This document shows, piece by piece, positions 2,207 to 23,600 of a stretch of 49,096 nucleotides of DNA. Below the pieces are notes generated by a model that ran no database searches, was not told the DNA's origin, and saw nothing but the letters and a program-made list of their open reading frames with translations. Each line of letters begins with the position of its first letter. Position 1 is the stretch's first letter. Both the position numbers and the translations under genes were made by a program. The stretch covers positions 1 to 49,096 of the IMG/VR virus record IMGVR_UViG_3300027967_000011. One strand, written 5' to 3'. Source of the DNA: a virus.

Positions 2207-5200
2207 ATGGCAAAACAAACAGTAGATTTAGGAGATGGACCTGATATAGGTATATCAGATAATTTGTATGAAGGGTTTACTAAGGTAAATGAAAATACAG
2301 ATGAGTTATATAGTAGAGTAGAAAATTTAGAATTAAAAGAAAGTAGTGTAGTATTTGAACTTACAATTGATTCAAATACTTTATTTGCTAATTTAACACC
2401 TATCAATACTACTTATGATAGTTATATAATTACTAATACTGAAGATTTAGATCCATTAAATACAGATCCTTTATGGGTACAAGGAGTACTCCCTACTCAA
2501 ATAGAATTACCTGATTGGAATTCTTATACTTATTATTTATGGTTATTAGATAATACTACAGTTACTGAGGTACTTACATCTGATGGTTCTAGCGGGGTAA
2601 CAGTAACACCAACAAGAACTACTGAAACGCCAGATGATGTTACGTTTATCGATGTTGAGAACGCCCAACTAACCTTTGTAGTTACTTCCAATGCAGTAAC
2701 AATCTCAGGATTACTCGCTCAAACAAGTATTTCTATTACTAATGGCGAATACTCTATTAATTCGGGTACTTTCACAAATGCAGATGGTGTTATTTCAAAC
2801 ACTGATACTGTTACATTACGTCAATTATCATCAGGAAGTGTGGTGACAACAACAACAGTGACAGTGATACTGGGAGATCGTACTGAAACTTGGAATGTAA
2901 CAACAATCTCAGATATATTTTTACAATCATTCACCGCCACTGTTGATATCGATACAACGACTGCTGATTTAACCTGGGGATATCAAGGAGCAACACCTCC
3001 GGTAGAATGGATCATTAAAGAAGACGATACAAGTTTCCCTGCTGTAGATGATGGTGACTGGGACGACACGGGCGAACCAGAAACATTTGCCTTGTCTGAT
3101 AACAATTCTCATACGCTGACAGCGAGGGTAAAGGATGCTGATGATAATATCAGCAATGCTATTACTGTAACTGTTACTCCAACGACAAGTGCATCACCTA
3201 CGATCACATCATTTACAACGCTGAATCCAACTGCCGGTTCCCAGGCTTATCTATTTTCATTAGCAGCAACAGGTACCATCACTCATTACATGATTACTGA
3301 CAATGACCTGGATCAACCTGCAGAGGGTGACGGTGGATGGGTAGCATGGGCAGGTGATTATACGGATGAAGCAGCTACATTAGATGCACTTGTCGATACG
3401 ACGGTTCGAGCATACGTCAAAAATGATGGAACAAGTCCAGATGATATATCAGCAGCCGCTGCATCCTTTGTCGATACATCTGTATCGGGCATAGATACAG
3501 CGCCGAATGGTGATTATCTTTGGGTTAATGATCCATCAATTTCAGCAACAAACCTTGGGCGTACCTATTCTGGTTCTGGGTCTCTTACCTTGGATGGCAC
3601 ATCTGGGGGATTAGATGCTTTAGTAGATACTACTGGGGATGATGATAATCATTCTGTAACAATTGCCGGAACTTATACAGCAGTAACAATTCAGAATTTT
3701 GATTTTCAGGGTTCAAATTATGGTCATATCTATATAAATAGAGGAGGCAGTCCCGGGTCGCCAATTGATGTAACAATACGGAATTGCAAGTTTGGCCCAA
3801 GCAATGTAAATGCTTCAGCACCAAATCTGTTTAAGTCTGCTATATCTTTATATCAAGTTAATAATTCAGATGTTGATATTTTAGGCAACTGGTTTGATGA
3901 TCCAGATTCAGTTATGACTTTCGAGAACTGTGATTCAATAGCATTAAGGGTGCGACATAATTTTGTTAGCGATACACATGCGCGGAATACTACTGTTAAT
4001 TGGTTACAACGGGGAATTAACTTCATTATTAGTCGGGCTGGCTCATGTACTGGGGACATTTCAGAGAATATTATGTATAACCCAACGGGCACTGCACAGA
4101 TGCAGGACTACTTCAATATAGCAGATCCTCGGGGCAGCATAGGAACGCCATTTGATATTACAAGAAATCGCATTTGGTATCCTTCATCTACATCTAGTAC
4201 AGAAGCAGTCTTCCAGATATCGGATGGTACCGCTAGTACCTATATAGATATGAACGAGAACACAATGATAGACGCAAATACATTTTTACAGTTTTCGTCT
4301 GGGCGCGGGCATCTATTCCGAAATAATAAGGGTTATACATCTGAGGCATTCCCAGCTGTAGGATCTGGTTATATCGTGCAGGTATATAGATATTCTATTG
4401 ACCCTGGCGGACTATATGAATGTGAGTTCAGTAATAATACATTTTTGCATAATTATGATGATGGGAGTGGTAATTTAACTCCTCTCCGCGATGGTACAGG
4501 GTATTTTTACCCATCATACGGGCGAAATGAAGATGGATCACAAGGCCCATGGAATCACGGATTGAGCAGCGAGTCTCCAATTACTGGATTTACTACCACT
4601 AATGACTGGAACCATTCAGATTGGGCAAATGGAGTTGGTAAGTCAGAATTATGGCGGGCATCCTGGACGCAGTTTAGTTATGCAGGAGCAGATGGACTTA
4701 CCCCCACAATTAATTACGATTCCCCATGGTCAGGTGATGGTGGTGATCAAGATTTTACAGCGAGAAGTGTTACCTCGGCAGCTTATGGTGATGGCGCAGC
4801 AATTAATTCTATTCAGCAGCACGATCTGATAGCCCTAGTATCAGGAGGCGTGGCGCCTTACGAGATCACTTTTGTAAATAATAAATCTGGCGGGATTACA
4901 GTTACAATCAATCCTGATGGTCAAGCCGTCATATGGACAGAAGATGATACGGCAGGAGTATTTACTTACAATTACACTGTGACAGACTCAGAAGGATCTA
5001 CAGCCACAGGTACTATTAGCGGAACGACTGTTGATTCATCTCCTGCTACATCCCTGCACTATGACCAGAATGATGAAGATTATATCTGTATCGATGTAGT
5101 AGATCCTCATGAGTATTATGCAAGAACTTGGGGAGATCCCCCGCTATTAGCTGAATGGGAAGCAAGACCAGGGAGTGGATCACCAAATAATACTTATATG

Positions 5201-6702: not shown

Positions 6703-6772
6703 GGCGAAAAGGTTTAGCGACCCTGGTAGTACTCCGATTACTATCTAGCCTTATTCATCGGAGAAATAGTAT
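6703..6772 (+). promoter_or_regulatory. Structured pseudoknot leader, copy A (in front of a deleted homing endonuclease)
   Basis: The element starts with GGCGAAAAGG (6703-6712). Stem 1 pairs GGT 6711-6713 with ACC 6720-6722. Stem 2 pairs GGTAGTA 6725-6731 with TACTATC 6739-6745 around the 7-nt loop CTCCGAT (6732-6738). That loop is perfectly complementary to ATCGGAG at 6757-6763, which contains the GGAG Shine-Dalgarno sequence. GGC 6703-6705 can also pair with GCC 6748-6750. The same architecture with different bases occurs at 9231 and 16888. Confidence 0.75.
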
Positions 6773-6870
6773 ATCATGTTAAATTAGTTAGTAGATTGCA
6801 TGTATCAAGTAATCTTCAGATAATTACGGCTGAAGAGAATTTACAAAAGAGTAATAAGTTTAAAACATAG
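6773..6870 (+). pseudogene. Remnant of an HNH homing endonuclease (C-terminal ~30 codons)
   Basis: The frame ending at TAG 6868-6870 reads KLVSRLHVSSNLQ, then IITAEENLQKSNKFKT. It aligns with the C-termini of the two intact HNH genes (LISGLHVPSNLQ.., NLVSGFHIENNLQ..). A YHV just upstream matches the YHVDH of the 226-aa protein. The roughly 190 codons with the zinc ribbon and HNH catalytic residues are gone, so this is an internally deleted copy. The leader (copy A) is still intact in front of it. The rest of the gap to 6920 holds only the RBS (AGAGGA) of the next gene. Confidence 0.85.
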
Positions 6871-9230: not shown

Positions 9231-9302
9231 GGCGAAAAGGGTAATTCCCCTGCCAGTATCCTAAGTACTGGCTAGTCATATAATACCCTTAGGAGGTAAA
9301 AA
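9231..9302 (+). promoter_or_regulatory. Structured pseudoknot leader, copy B (HNH gene at 9303)
   Basis: GGCGAAAAGG occupies 9231-9240. Stem 1 pairs GGG 9239-9241 with CCC 9247-9249. Stem 2 is the perfect GCCAGTA 9252-9258 / TACTGGC 9266-9272 with loop TCCTAAG (9259-9265). The loop pairs with CTTAGGA at 9288-9294, which includes the first four bases of the AGGAGG Shine-Dalgarno sequence (9291-9296) of the HNH gene. GGC 9231-9233 can pair with GTC 9275-9277. Folding would reduce ribosome access to the start at 9303. Confidence 0.85.
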
Positions 9303-10004
9303 ATGAAAACGAATAAAGAAATTGTAACTGAAATTATTAAAGACTTGGAAAAGATTGTTGGACTTAACTGGCCAATAAGAAAAGATGCTAAAGTATCAAA
9401 AGAAAAATTGATAGATTGCTGGTCTGCTTATAGAAAAGATTCAGAATATAATTTTTATAATTATACACATTCAAATAGTTTAGGTATAGCATACAAAAAA
9501 ATATTTATTAATATAATAAAAAATAATATTCAATCTTGGAAAAATTATATTTTGAATTTATATAATTATAAATATTGTTATAAATGTGGAAAATTAAAAA
9601 AATTAAATGAATTTACTTTAAGTAAACATACAATGTCCAATCATGAAAGTGAATGTAAAGATTGTAAAAAAAATTATTACCAAAATAATAAAGAAAATAT
9701 ACTTGAAAGAAGTAAAAAGCATTATCAGAACAATAAAGAAAAATATGCTGCAAAAGATGCAAAAAGGCGAGCAGCTAAATTAAATCGCACGCCTGCTTGG
9801 CTCACTGAACAAGATTTAAAAGATATAGAAAGCTTTTATACTAAAACACAAGAACTAACAGAAGAAACTGGTATACAACATCATGTCGACCATATAATTC
9901 CTTTACAAGGTGAATTAATATCTGGATTACATGTTCCTAGTAATCTTCAAATACTCCCAGCTAAAGAAAACTTACAGAAGGGAAATAAATTTGAAGTTAT
10001 ATAA
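9303..10004 (+). CDS. Free-standing HNH homing endonuclease (paralogue 1)
   Basis: 233 residues. The N-terminal domain (1-80, TNKEIVTEIIKDLE...GLNWP...KVSKEKLIDCW) is shared with the gene at 16961. A zinc-ribbon-like pair CYKCG / CKDCKK sits in the middle, and the C-terminal HNH core carries HHVDHIIPLQG (about 193-203), SNLQ and KGNKF. These match phage HNH endonucleases that cut DNA to promote spread of their own gene. It is inserted between portal and protease/capsid genes without disrupting either, with its own SD (AGGAGG) inside the structured leader. The ORF is intact and probably active. Confidence 0.92.
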   Translation: MKTNKEIVTEIIKDLEKIVGLNWPIRKDAKVSKEKLIDCWSAYRKDSEYNFYNYTHSNSLGIAYKKIFINIIKNNIQSWKNYILNLYNYKYCYKCGKLKKLNEFTLSKHTMSNHESECKDCKKNYYQNNKENILERSKKHYQNNKEKYAAKDAKRRAAKLNRTPAWLTEQDLKDIESFYTKTQELTEETGIQHHVDHIIPLQGELISGLHVPSNLQILPAKENLQKGNKFEVI

Positions 10005-16500: not shown

Positions 16501-16895
16501 ATCTGCTCAACAAAAAATTACAAAACTTTTTTGATAATTCTGAGCTTAAAATGACTAAAGAACGGTATTTATTATTATGCGAACAGCTCGGCAATGAGCC
16601 AAAAGATAATGAGATCCCCGCCGAGTTTGAAGATTTTCCTTATACCGTGCAAACTGCTATAACTATATACCATATATTGAGTGATAGGTGGGATGGCTTT
16701 TCAGGAACTTACTTCGGAAAGGACTATTCGCTTCTACCATACTTAGTAAAGTTATATAGGATAGAAGATGAGTCTCAACTGCTTCAATTTTTATTATTAA
16801 TAGATAGAATAATTATTGCAAAACGTTCAGAAGATCAGAAACGAAGAAATAAGAAAACCACCGGTAAAAAAAGTGGTATAAATATACAAGGGTGA
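16485..16895 (+). CDS. Tail assembly chaperone, frameshift extension (gpGT second domain)
   Basis: The frame is open from 16482 and reads YEEQLNLLNKKLQNFF, then DNSELKMTKERYLLLCEQLG and so on, ending at TGA 16893-16895. The first ATG is at 16551, but it lacks a clear RBS, and helical sequence upstream of it continues the short form. The motif E-x-x-MTxExYxxxCExLG...IPxExEDFPYxVQ is typical of the T-domain of gpGT proteins. The fusion would be about 268 residues. The very basic C-terminus (KRSEDQKRRNKKTTGKKSG) would suit interaction with the acidic tape measure/chaperone complex. The stop codon is embedded in leader copy C. Confidence 0.8.
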   Translation, partial: YEEQLNLLNKKLQNFFDNSELKMTKERYLLLCEQLGNEPKDNEIPAEFEDFPYTVQTAITIYHILSDRWDGFSGTYFGKDYSLLPYLVKLYRIEDESQLLQFLLLIDRIIIAKRSEDQKRRNKKTTGKKSGINIQG

Positions 16896-16960
16896 AAAGG
16901 ATAGCTTCCCTGCTAGTACCACTATTACTAGCTAGCCCTTATCTATAGTGGAGATATAAA
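16888..16960 (+). promoter_or_regulatory. Structured pseudoknot leader, copy C (HNH gene at 16961)
   Basis: GGTGAAAAGG occupies 16891-16900, and its TGA is the stop codon of the chaperone extension. Stem 1 pairs GGA 16899-16901 with TCC 16907-16909. Stem 2 is the perfect GCTAGTA 16912-16918 / TACTAGC 16926-16932 with loop CCACTAT (16919-16925). The loop pairs with ATAGTGG at 16945-16951, abutting the GGAG Shine-Dalgarno sequence (16950-16953). An outer helix AAGGGT 16888-16893 / GCCCTT 16935-16940 closes the structure. A ribosome finishing the upstream gene would melt the 5' part. Confidence 0.85.
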
Positions 16961-17641
16961 ATGGAAAAAACAAATAAAGAAATTATAACTGAAATTATTG
17001 AAGATTTAGAGCAAACAGAAGGGTTAAATTGGCCTAAAGCGCATAATGCAAAAGTATCAAGAGAAAAATTAATAGAATGCTGGTCTGAATATAGAGAAGG
17101 ATCTGATTATAAATATTTTAATTATTATGGTAAGGGTGGTTTATGTAAAGTGTATAAAAATATATTTAGTAATATAAATAAAGAATCACGTAGTGAATTG
17201 TGGAAAACATATATTTTAAGACTTTATAATTATAAATATTGTAATATATGTGGAGAATTAAAAAAATTAGATGAATTTTACTTAGATGCAGCTAAAATAT
17301 CTAAGAAACGTTGTCAATGTAAAGATTGTATGAAAAAATACAGAGAGAATAATAGAGATAAGAGTGCTACAGCAACTGCAAAGTACAGGGCAGCAAAATT
17401 ACAACGTATGCCAGCATGGGCCAATTTAGAAGCTATAAAAGAAATATATATTAATTGTCCAGAGGGCTATCACGTAGACCATATAGTGCCTTTACAGGGA
17501 AACTTAGTATCAGGGTTTCATATAGAAAATAATTTACAGTATTTAAAAGCGGAAGATAATCTTTCTAAGAGTAATAAATTCAGTTTGGAAGATAATTTGG
17601 AATATTTACCTTATTTTCCTGCTAATAAGTTTGAAGTGTAA
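16961..17641 (+). CDS. Free-standing HNH homing endonuclease (paralogue 2)
   Basis: 226 residues, clearly paralogous to the gene at 9303: TNKEIITEIIEDLE...GLNWP...AKVSREKLIECWSEYR at the N-terminus, zinc-ribbon pair CNICG / CKDCMKK in the middle, and the HNH core YHVDHIVPLQGNLVSGFH with NNLQ and KSNKF at the C-terminus. The C-terminal extension after KSNKF is about 20 residues longer than in its paralogue. Inserted between the tail chaperone and tape measure genes, splitting an otherwise conserved gene pair without breaking either. Expression is probably tied to the structured leader. The ORF is intact. Confidence 0.92.
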   Translation: MEKTNKEIITEIIEDLEQTEGLNWPKAHNAKVSREKLIECWSEYREGSDYKYFNYYGKGGLCKVYKNIFSNINKESRSELWKTYILRLYNYKYCNICGELKKLDEFYLDAAKISKKRCQCKDCMKKYRENNRDKSATATAKYRAAKLQRMPAWANLEAIKEIYINCPEGYHVDHIVPLQGNLVSGFHIENNLQYLKAEDNLSKSNKFSLEDNLEYLPYFPANKFEV

Positions 17642-20600: not shown

Positions 20601-23600
20601 AAATAAGGTACAAAATCCTATAACAGATCATTTGGATTATGCAGAGTTTGCTAAACTTGAAAAAGATGCAGAAACAGCACAACAGACTAAGAATAAAGCA
20701 TTAATAAAAGAGTTACAACTTAAATCTCAATTAGGAGATTTAGAACTTGAAATAAATAAAGTAAGAATTAATGAATTTAAAATGTTGAAAGGTTATATTA
20801 TAGAGTTAGCCGCTTTAGTATCTAAAGGAATTTGGATCCCACCTGGAGCTCAAGAAGCTACAGCTAAATTAAAAGAACTTTATTCTCAAATTACAGGGTA
20901 TAGTGCTGAGATATTGGAAAATAATTTTAAATCATTTTTATACTATAATGAGGCTTTAAGTAGAGTTAATGCTACAGCTTTAGGATTGTATAATCAAACA
21001 GAAGAAATAAAGCGGAGAACTGAAGCCCTTAAAGAGGAAAGTAAGGTTTTAAAAACTAATCTTACTATTTCAGATGATTTAATTGAAAGTGCGGTTAATT
21101 TAGAAATAGCAAGAACAGAAGCACAGTCAGATGCTCTTAAAGGAGCATTATATGCTAATAGGATACCTGGAGATGTAAGTAGCGGTCTTGCAATAGGTGC
21201 AGATAGTGATGAGCGCAAAAAATTAGGAGCAATTTTAAAGGAATTAGCTGTAAAAGAAGTTGAATTAGAAAAACAAAAAACAGCACTGGTAAATAAACAA
21301 TTAGAACAAGAAAATATAAAAATTAAACTACAACAGGATTCTATAAGGTCTACACTTAGGGAAGGATTATTTATATCTAAAGCTAAAGAAATACAAATTA
21401 AACAAGAAGAAGAATTATTAGCTTTATCAAAACGTACAAAGGAATATAATACAGCAGGATATAAAGAACAAGAAAAACTTATAAAAGAAAGAGCTAAATT
21501 AGCATATAAAACAGATTTAAATGCAGATCTAGGAGCAGCTACTGAGTCAGCTAGAGAATTTTCAGATGTAATGGAAACATTAGCTGATAGGTTAGAAAAT
21601 TTAGGAAGTTCAACAGATAAATTTAGGGCTGGATTAGTAGCTATTGCTGAAATATCTGTATTATCAGATTCAGAAACTGCAATTGGTTTATCTCAGTTAG
21701 CTATATTAACTGAAGAATTTGGATCTCAAACTGAAGAAGTTAGAAAAAGTTTTGAAGCTATGGCATTATTTGCTGCTGGTGCAGCAGGTGCATTAGCTAA
21801 TGCCTTTGAAGAGGGATCTACCGCTGCAGAAACATTTCAAGTTATACAAACAGGTTTAGCATTAGTATCGGCTGTTAGAGCAGTTATGGAACAAGGTACT
21901 GGTGGTGATCCATATACAGCATTTGCTAGAATGGCTGCTATGGCTGCCGCTGCCGCTGCATTACTCAGCCAAATTAATGTCTCCTTTAGTGGGGGAGGTG
22001 GTGGATTTACTGCAGCAGAACCGGCAACTTTCCAAGATCAATTTGGAGCACAAGGTGCTCAAGGAATAGATTTACAAACTAATTCTCTAAGAGATTCTAT
22101 TGATGCATTAGTAGATATAGATACAGATTTATTCGGTGTTAATAGAGACTTAAAGATTAGTATAGTTAATTTAAATAGAACTTTTGATGCTCTTGGTGCT
22201 GCTGTATTTAATCAATCTGGTGATTTCTCAGCTGGCAATATATTAGACCAATTTGGAATTCAGTTTGGTACTGAACTTAAAGGTGGATCTTTTGGCGGAC
22301 TTTTTGGTAGTTCAACTAAGACAAATGAATTATTAGCTGCGGGTATTCAATTCGGAGCTACTATAGGATTAGTAGGTGATACATTAGGTGGTTCAATAAT
22401 AGATGCCGATGCTTATATAACACAACAAATAACAAAAACTAAAAGTAGTTTCTTTGGTGGTAGTAAAACAAAAGTAAGAATAGAAACTAGTGTTTCAGAA
22501 TTAGAACCAAGAGTTGGAAAAGCATTACAAGATGCTTTAGATATTACATTAGATACTTTATTAGGATTATTTGAATCTTTAGGTTCAGATATACCTAAAT
22601 TATTGAGTGGGTTTGCCGGATTAGATATAGATGTAACAAAGTTAGATTTATCTGGTAAATCTGCTAAAGATCAGTCAGATACTATAGCAGCATTCTTTTC
22701 TAATTTAACAAATGAACTTATTGATGATTTAGTTCCAGGATTAGAGGCCTTTACTAAAGCCGGGGAAGAGCTTACAGATACATTAATTAGAATAAGTACA
22801 GAAACTCAAGAATTAAATACATCTTTTTCTACTATAGGATTAAAAATATCAGACTTTGGATTATTTGATAATATAGAAGAAGATTATAATACTTTTATTA
22901 CTAATATACCAGCAGGTGTAGCTACAATTAATCAAGATATACAAGATCAAATAGATGCTATAGAAGCTACTAAATTTGTTCCGCCTGTTTTAGATACTAC
23001 AGATAGTGGTTATCTTATAGATAATAAACGAATATTTGAAGCAACACTCAAAACTAAATCAGAGTTTGAAAAAAATAAACGAGAAGCAATTGCTGCATTA
23101 GAAGAAGATTTATATTCTATTACTAGTGCCGTTGTTCCTACTATAGAAGCTTTTAAAGTATTAACTTTAGCTGCATGGAATGAAGCATTTTTATCTGGTT
23201 TTGAAAATGTAGATGAAATGTCAGATATTAGTGAAAGATTTTATACTGCATTATTTTCAGAACAAGAATTAGCAGATATAGCTGTAACAAATGCCGAAGA
23301 TGTTGTTGGTAAAGGAATAGCAGAATTAGCTGGTGTATTATATAAACAAGGATTTGGTGAGTTTGCAAACTTATTATCTGAAGATATGTCTACTGAAGAT
23401 TTAAGAGATATCTTTGATGTTTTAACAGAAATAGGGGCTTTTGCTTCTGTAGAAGGTGCAGCACTACTTGGAATATTTGTTAGAGCTGGAGTAGCCGTTG
23501 GTGACTTAGAAATTGCTATAGAAGAAGCAGTTGAAGAAGTAAATAATTTAAATCAACAATATGAAAGACAAATTGCATTATTTGGTCTATTAGGGAAAGA

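Follow-up and report, generated by a model that had tools for sequence, protein, structure and literature searches.

Selfish nucleases have to spare their carrier phage, and the known examples of restrained homing-endonuclease translation are the ribosome-binding-site (RBS) hairpins of a few T4-like phages. RNA structures that hide the RBS restrain I-TevI of T4 and mobE of Aeh1 (PMC2988022). In the cobalamin riboswitch, the RBS lies in the terminal loop of the expression-platform hairpin and is occluded by the L5-L13 kissing contact, and ligand dependence requires the interloop helix to be bulged (PMC10907184). Here, we analysed a 49,096-nucleotide stretch of viral DNA (IMG/VR record IMGVR_UViG_3300027967_000011, positions 1 to 49,096; hereafter the window), for which an earlier note, made from the sequence alone, had described three leaders sharing GGYGAAAAGG as a pseudoknot family in front of HNH homing endonuclease genes. 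A motif scan of the whole window recovered exact copies of GGYGAAAAGG solely at 6703, 9231, and 16891. We propose, with a probability of roughly 0.8 and chiefly on comparative sequence grounds, that the leader represses translation in cis and travels with a free-standing homing endonuclease gene. The leaders, their parts, and the genes behind them are as follows:

9231..9298, plus strand: leader 2, the whole P1-P2-P3-P4 element, directly 5' of the intact HNH gene 9303-10004 (sequence; covariance-model match 54.9 bits, E 1.4e-15)
9231..9277, plus strand: predicted three-way junction of leader 2, with helices P1 9231-9233/9275-9277, P2 9239-9241/9247-9249, and P3 9252-9258/9266-9272, and junction strands J12 GAAAA 9234-9238, J23 CU 9250-9251, and J31 UA 9273-9274 (sequence; helix covariation in 87 distinct members)
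9259..9265, plus strand: P3 loop UCCUAAG of leader 2, the predicted kissing partner (exact complement of 9288-9294, CTTAGGA; family statistics)
9284..9298, plus strand: predicted P4 hairpin of leader 2, UACC-[CUUAGGA]-GGUA, with stem 9284-9287/9295-9298 (sequence, covariation, permutation test)
16891..16956, plus strand: leader 3 (sequence; covariance model 68.5 bits, E 6.2e-20), with P1 16891-16893/16935-16937, extendable to 16888/16940, P2 16899-16901/16907-16909, P3 16912-16918/16926-16932, and P3 loop CCACUAU 16919-16925, the exact 7-nt complement of AUAGUGG 16945-16951
16940..16956, plus strand: predicted P4 of leader 3, UAUCU-[AUAGUGG 16945-16951]-AGAUA, with stem 16940-16944/16952-16956 (sequence, covariation/permutation test)
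6703..6769, plus strand: leader 1 (sequence; covariance model 58.8 bits), with P1 6703-6705/6748-6750, P2 6711-6713/6720-6722, P3 6725-6731/6739-6745, P4 6751-6755/6765-6769 topped by a C-A mismatch, and loop CUCCGAU 6732-6738, the exact 7-nt complement of the predicted kissing strand AUCGGAG 6757-6763
9303..10004, plus strand: 233-aa HNH endonuclease-type gene, intact; it and leader 2 sit together between the genes for portal and prohead protease
16961..17641, plus strand: intact HNH-type gene, 226 aa, behind leader 3, its product 55% identical to that of the 9303 gene
6778..6864, plus strand: HNH gene remnant behind leader 1 (tblastn 66% identity, query residues 203-231)

The 233-aa product of 9303-10004 gave no Pfam match below 1e-3; it carries an HVDHI/LQ..NL..N motif, and its set is dominated by PHROG endonuclease VII and HNH matches. 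The placement of leaders before HNH genes stands at 9231 and 16891, whereas the leader at 6703 heads a remnant in which only the last ~29 codons are still recognisable. The segment 6703-6864 has the appearance of a decaying cassette, with an intact-looking leader before a nuclease remnant. Leader 1 has kept a perfect 7-bp loop complement despite its dead gene, which may reflect recent gene loss.

To place these elements in a family, viral contigs were scanned for the pattern, yielding 47 stretches, most of them with the full folding plan. A covariance model (R1) built from 32 leaders was then used with further pattern scans to enlarge the family, which now comprises 87 distinct sequences; at a limit of 85% identity 59 remain. 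Nearly all members come from phage contigs, with up to six copies per source record. When the same pattern was applied to 84,980 bacterial and archaeal species genomes, only one of 31 matches proved a genuine member, on a 4-kb contig of a Candidatus Fermentibacteria MAG (L090); the family is therefore essentially one of phages. Named phages with the leader are Escherichia phage EP_H11 (OP688485.1, leader at 22497-22573) and Vibrio phages D181, D148, and D69, and in the three Vibrio phages the gene after it is annotated as a homing endonuclease. EP_H11 was the sole named phage recovered by blastn with a consensus-type query, while D181 was found through a model search of its record. In T4, the covariance model gave chance-level matches alone (best E 0.07).

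Searches against Rfam 15 returned no match at the curated gathering score for the whole window, sub-threshold chance matches alone for leader 2 at E<=5, none for the EP_H11 leader at E<=1, and only matches far below the cut-offs for the divergent leader L254. The leaders are an RNA family absent from Rfam 15, in agreement with the first impression that they belong to no nameable ribozyme or riboswitch class. Our searches of the open literature turned up no description of the family, although one may have been published without being curated.

Comparison across the family points to a covarying three-way junction of P1, P2, and P3 as the leader fold. Pairing was retained in 97.8% of cells, compared with 76.6% in shuffles and 23-50% in controls with slid partners, and 12 of the 13 pairs showed changes on both sides, bearing out the covariation first noticed among the window's three copies. 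The short outer GGY/GYC helix, earlier held to be merely possible, corresponds to P1 and recurs in relatives as GGC/GCC, GAC/GUC, AGC/GCU, GAGC/GCUC, UAGC/GCUA, GGAAC/GUUCC, and other variants. Among the members found, the junction strands GAAAA, CU, and UA are nearly invariant, but this conservation is overstated because most members were found by patterns demanding GAAAAGG and CAGRG/CTAG, and hence part of the junction itself. Members found through their proteins carry GAAA, GAAC, GACAC, or GAAGA at J12 and UU at J23. The linkers CT and TA, described as fixed, fared unequally: UA at J31 is constant in all aligned members, whereas CU at J23 holds in most and is replaced by UU in divergent ones.

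The second layer of structure links the P3 loop to the Shine-Dalgarno (SD) sequence. In the window, the loops CTCCGAT, TCCTAAG, and CCACTAT exactly complement ATCGGAG, CTTAGGA, and ATAGTGG, as reported earlier, and each of these loops matches its own partner over 7 nt, whereas they match each other over at most 3. The P3 loop is mostly 6-7 nt long across the family. Most relatives keep the complementarity: 37 of 54 nonredundant leaders have at least 6 bp between loop and SD segment, whereas permuting partners among the leaders gave 2.0 such cases on average and never more than 7 in 1000 trials, and in 38 of the 54 no loop position is left unpaired. Of the 46 leaders with a start codon nearby, 43 show overlap between the paired strand and an SD-like sequence, and 45 have the start codon 6-12 nt downstream of that strand.

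The SD-side strand is itself enclosed by a hairpin, P4, that had previously been missed. At least 4 bp of P4 are present in 39 of 47 leaders (permuted 3' side: mean 11.9, maximum 20 in 2000 permutations), and its pairs vary among UA, CG, AU, GC, and UG, as in UAUUCU-[AAGCGG]-AGAAUA of EP_H11; in these loop and P4 tests, kinship among leaders is only partly removed by clustering and permuting. Part of the SD closes the P4 loop on its 3' side, and the remainder opens the 3' strand of the P4 stem: in leader 2, AGGA of AGGAGG lies in the P4 loop (on the kissing strand) and GG in the P4 3' strand, and in leader 3, GGAG straddles loop and stem. Since the SD-side strand is the loop of P4, the predicted contact is a loop-loop (kissing) one and no simple pseudoknot; the pairing recognised earlier is real, but the element is better read, from its covariation, as a kissing lock built on a three-way junction. 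Complementarity is lost more often where the gene is dead: three of seven such leaders fall below 5 bp, as against two of 69 whose gene is intact (Fisher p = 0.005).

The leader is associated with nucleases rather than with HNH proteins specifically, and here the earlier description was too narrow. Among 68 downstream proteins scanned, 39 matched PHROG endonuclease VII and 30 a PHROG HNH endonuclease family (the two sets overlap), and Pfam matches comprised GIY-YIG, PDDEXK_5, DUF559, T5orf172, Endonuclease_7, and HNH_repeat; the leader precedes GIY-YIG, PD-(D/E)XK, DUF559, and endonuclease-VII-like genes besides HNH genes. To avoid pattern bias, we also collected loci through the protein without using the RNA pattern. 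These protein-anchored tests placed a leader directly upstream at 28 of 33 loci of one HNH family (L256 and L257 additionally have a divergent one), at 15 of 15 loci of a second HNH family, and at both of two GIY-YIG loci. Distant HNH relatives of the window gene, 33 in all, had no leader, which is therefore no general property of HNH genes.

Several individual loci deserve mention. One 78-kb phage contig (L163, also G033), which shares the window's copies, carries two minus-strand leaders with an identical 3' half, one at 923-988 before an HNH gene and the other at 4878-4941 before a T5orf172/GIY-YIG-like gene; this pair suggests that a leader has been exchanged between nucleases. On L167 (1636-2107, minus strand), a leader-like element with a 5-bp loop complement precedes a 133-aa gene (MAKKAAVVEQ...) whose product has no PHROG match, possibly a leader adopted by a non-nuclease gene. 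The 114-kb record IMGVR_UViG_3300043464_001836 holds approximately nine related HNH-type genes and six model-detected leaders, an unusually dense load of putative homing endonucleases.

Comparison of related phages indicates that the leader is carried with the endonuclease, as had been inferred from the window. In 18 of 18 related phages, whose portal proteins are 55-68% identical to that of the window, the portal and prohead protease genes touch or almost touch, with the leader and HNH gene missing from between them; two of these relatives have leader and HNH gene at a different site, upstream of the portal gene. This is presence/absence polymorphism at one site among related phages, as expected of a free-standing homing endonuclease cassette. 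Between EP_H11 and phage IME392, homology stops ~6-8 nt before P1 and resumes past the endonuclease gene, which places the leader at the left edge of the inserted segment. Taken together, the leader appears to move together with its endonuclease gene. A group I/II intron or HEARO was rejected: the window has no Rfam match to one, and the insert lies between the portal and protease genes, not within one.

Upstream stop codons are scattered from -136 to +2 relative to the leader, with one alone inside it. Because these distances differ so widely, the leader is no overlap device of a host gene, and translational coupling to the upstream gene through the leader is not general. The single exception is in the window, where the TGA stop of the upstream ORF 16551-16895 falls inside the 5' part of leader 3 (16891-16895), the one such overlap, in the set of leaders examined, that involves a long upstream frame.

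Under the proposed repressor, the P3 and P4 loops would kiss through mostly 6-7 Watson-Crick pairs, with the junction setting the geometry that lets P3 reach P4. The contact would hide the SD and reduce ribosome loading, and nuclease synthesis would stay low or depend on opening of the contact, for which the ribosome, later or shorter transcripts, or some other factor are candidates. The leader thus probably keeps translation of the nuclease genes weak or confines it to some condition. Counting against the proposal are the perfect complement that leader 1 retains before its dead gene, the leader-like element on L167 before an apparent non-nuclease gene, the 33 leaderless HNH relatives, and the unremarkable folding of single leaders. 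The family suggests that many phages, those of E. coli and Vibrio included, reuse one portable, self-contained RNA lock for nucleases whose folds are unrelated. Its natural loop pairs number in the dozens; they mostly differ between the copies of one genome and are candidates for insulated translation controls. Two questions thereby come within reach of experiment: is the lock constitutive or switched, and does its acquisition determine which nuclease lineages survive?

Among the alternatives, one holds that the leaders form a riboswitch-like class, in which the compact three-way junction senses a phage-infection-specific factor and controls endonuclease translation via the SD kissing loop, unrelated homing endonucleases having each captured the same mobile switch; we regard this as unlikely, though the strongest of the competing views. 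Somewhat less probable is a riboswitch whose junction takes up a small ligand or ion, by which the P3-P4 kiss is formed or broken and endonuclease translation turned off or on. Its architecture would be that of the env8 cobalamin expression platform, where RBS hairpin loop L13 kisses aptamer loop L5, but ligand dependence there needs the interloop bulge (PMC10907184), whereas leader interloop pairing is Watson-Crick at 319 positions and other at 27, with almost all helices uninterrupted. The near-invariance of the junction among the members found would suit a binding site, but only ~9 junction nucleotides are conserved and J12 varies in the protein-found members; the downstream genes have no common metabolic theme, and there is no Rfam match. 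With so few exceptions to Watson-Crick pairing between the loops, we favour a lock that is constitutive or opened by the ribosome over a ligand switch; uninterrupted interloop helices would fit a constitutive lock at least as well.

A protein operator, in which a host ribosomal protein or a phage RNA-binding protein recognises the junction and stabilises the lock, we consider a little more doubtful again. Pseudoknot operators have precedents in T4 gene 32 and rpsO (PMC3014915), and the same junction, with P2 and P3 UUCG-capped, occurs without SD pairing in L213, L176, L230, and L193, as a protein-binding module might; against this stands the lack of any known candidate protein. As the leader is common to unrelated nuclease folds, the encoded nuclease is unlikely to regulate itself through it.

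An exoribonuclease-resistant or mRNA-stabilising element is improbable. The flaviviral class-1 xrRNA likewise has a P1/P2/P3 junction with its P3 loop pairing downstream, and the leader topology derived from covariation repeats that helix order and long-range loop pairing. However, the partner strand of the leaders lies nearly always on the SD, with constant spacing to the start codon, and within a hairpin, and stability alone needs neither; we also know of no RNase J-type 5'-3' exoribonuclease in E. coli, the host of EP_H11.

Slightly more improbable still is a DNA-level element, namely an end structure of the mobile cassette recognised in homing or transposition. The left edge of the mobile segment does coincide, exactly or very nearly, with the leader, but departures from pairing in the nonredundant set are G-U in 31 cases and A-C in 6, an excess that points to coding-strand RNA rather than DNA; moreover, the SD/start spacing is fixed and the leader is common to nucleases of unrelated folds. 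Chance complementarity, or a non-functional conserved repeat, has a negligible probability: single leaders are not unusually stable (z = 0.9, -1.9, and 0.1 in thermodynamic folding, which cannot model the loop-loop contact), but the permutation and shuffle tests contradict this reading, and loops differ among the copies in one genome while each matches its own partner.

Among described RNAs, preQ1-II, SAM-II, and preQ1-I resemble the leaders in that a leader loop pairs with the SD in cis, but their topology differs, the leaders having a three-way junction and a separate P4. An identity with preQ1-II was rejected: canonical leaders have no Rfam match to it, and the best match on a divergent leader reached 18.7 bits against a cut-off of 47. 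Freshwater-2 RNA (RF02980) is likewise a cis-regulatory candidate ending in SD and AUG, but it consists of two hairpins in series without a three-way junction, and no match to it in these phages comes near the cut-off or shows a preference for leaders; it too was rejected. The hammerhead consensus includes a CUGANGA strand; CGAAA in the leaders resembles one hammerhead strand, but the CUGANGA strand is absent. The Pistol ribozyme (RF02679) model has no match at the window leaders.

A related junction, C-GAAAA-P2-CU-P3-UA-G, with P2 and P3 UUCG-capped and no SD, was observed at L213 4111-4222, L176 6169-6280, and L230 3172-3288 (all minus strand), each followed directly by a Pistol ribozyme (RF02679, 43.8-48 bits) and preceded by a sigma70-like promoter sequence; these may be a phage junction-plus-ribozyme noncoding RNA. 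At L193 4611-4672 (minus strand), a further UUCG-capped copy of this three-way junction, without SD pairing, precedes a non-nuclease-looking ORF.

From the flaviviral class-1 xrRNA the leaders differ in the SD position, in P4, and in being phage mRNA leaders, and there is no sequence relation. With the cobalamin riboswitch they share, on comparative evidence, an RBS hairpin whose loop kisses an upstream loop. The cobalamin aptamer is larger and has a four-way junction, whereas the leaders have a three-way junction, an uninterrupted interloop helix, and no B12-type core; no Rfam model match to that core was found in the whole window, leader 2, or the EP_H11 leader. The RBS-sequestering hairpins of T4 I-TevI, I-TevII, I-TevIII, and segB and of Aeh1 mobE likewise stand before a homing endonuclease with the SD hidden and translation limited (PMC2988022), as the leaders lie directly 5' of the endonuclease gene with the SD within the structure (43/46). 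The T4 and Aeh1 elements are simple local hairpins, that of I-TevI being relieved by a late promoter inside the structure, whose transcripts are devoid of the 5' half; the leaders also contain a local hairpin, P4, but its loop is predicted to pair with a distant junction arm, and their conserved three-way junction with its loop-loop contact is homologous across many phages and nuclease folds. On the best explanation, the leaders would work like the cobalamin-riboswitch kissing loop or the T4 I-TevI and Aeh1 mobE RBS hairpins while being unrelated to them.
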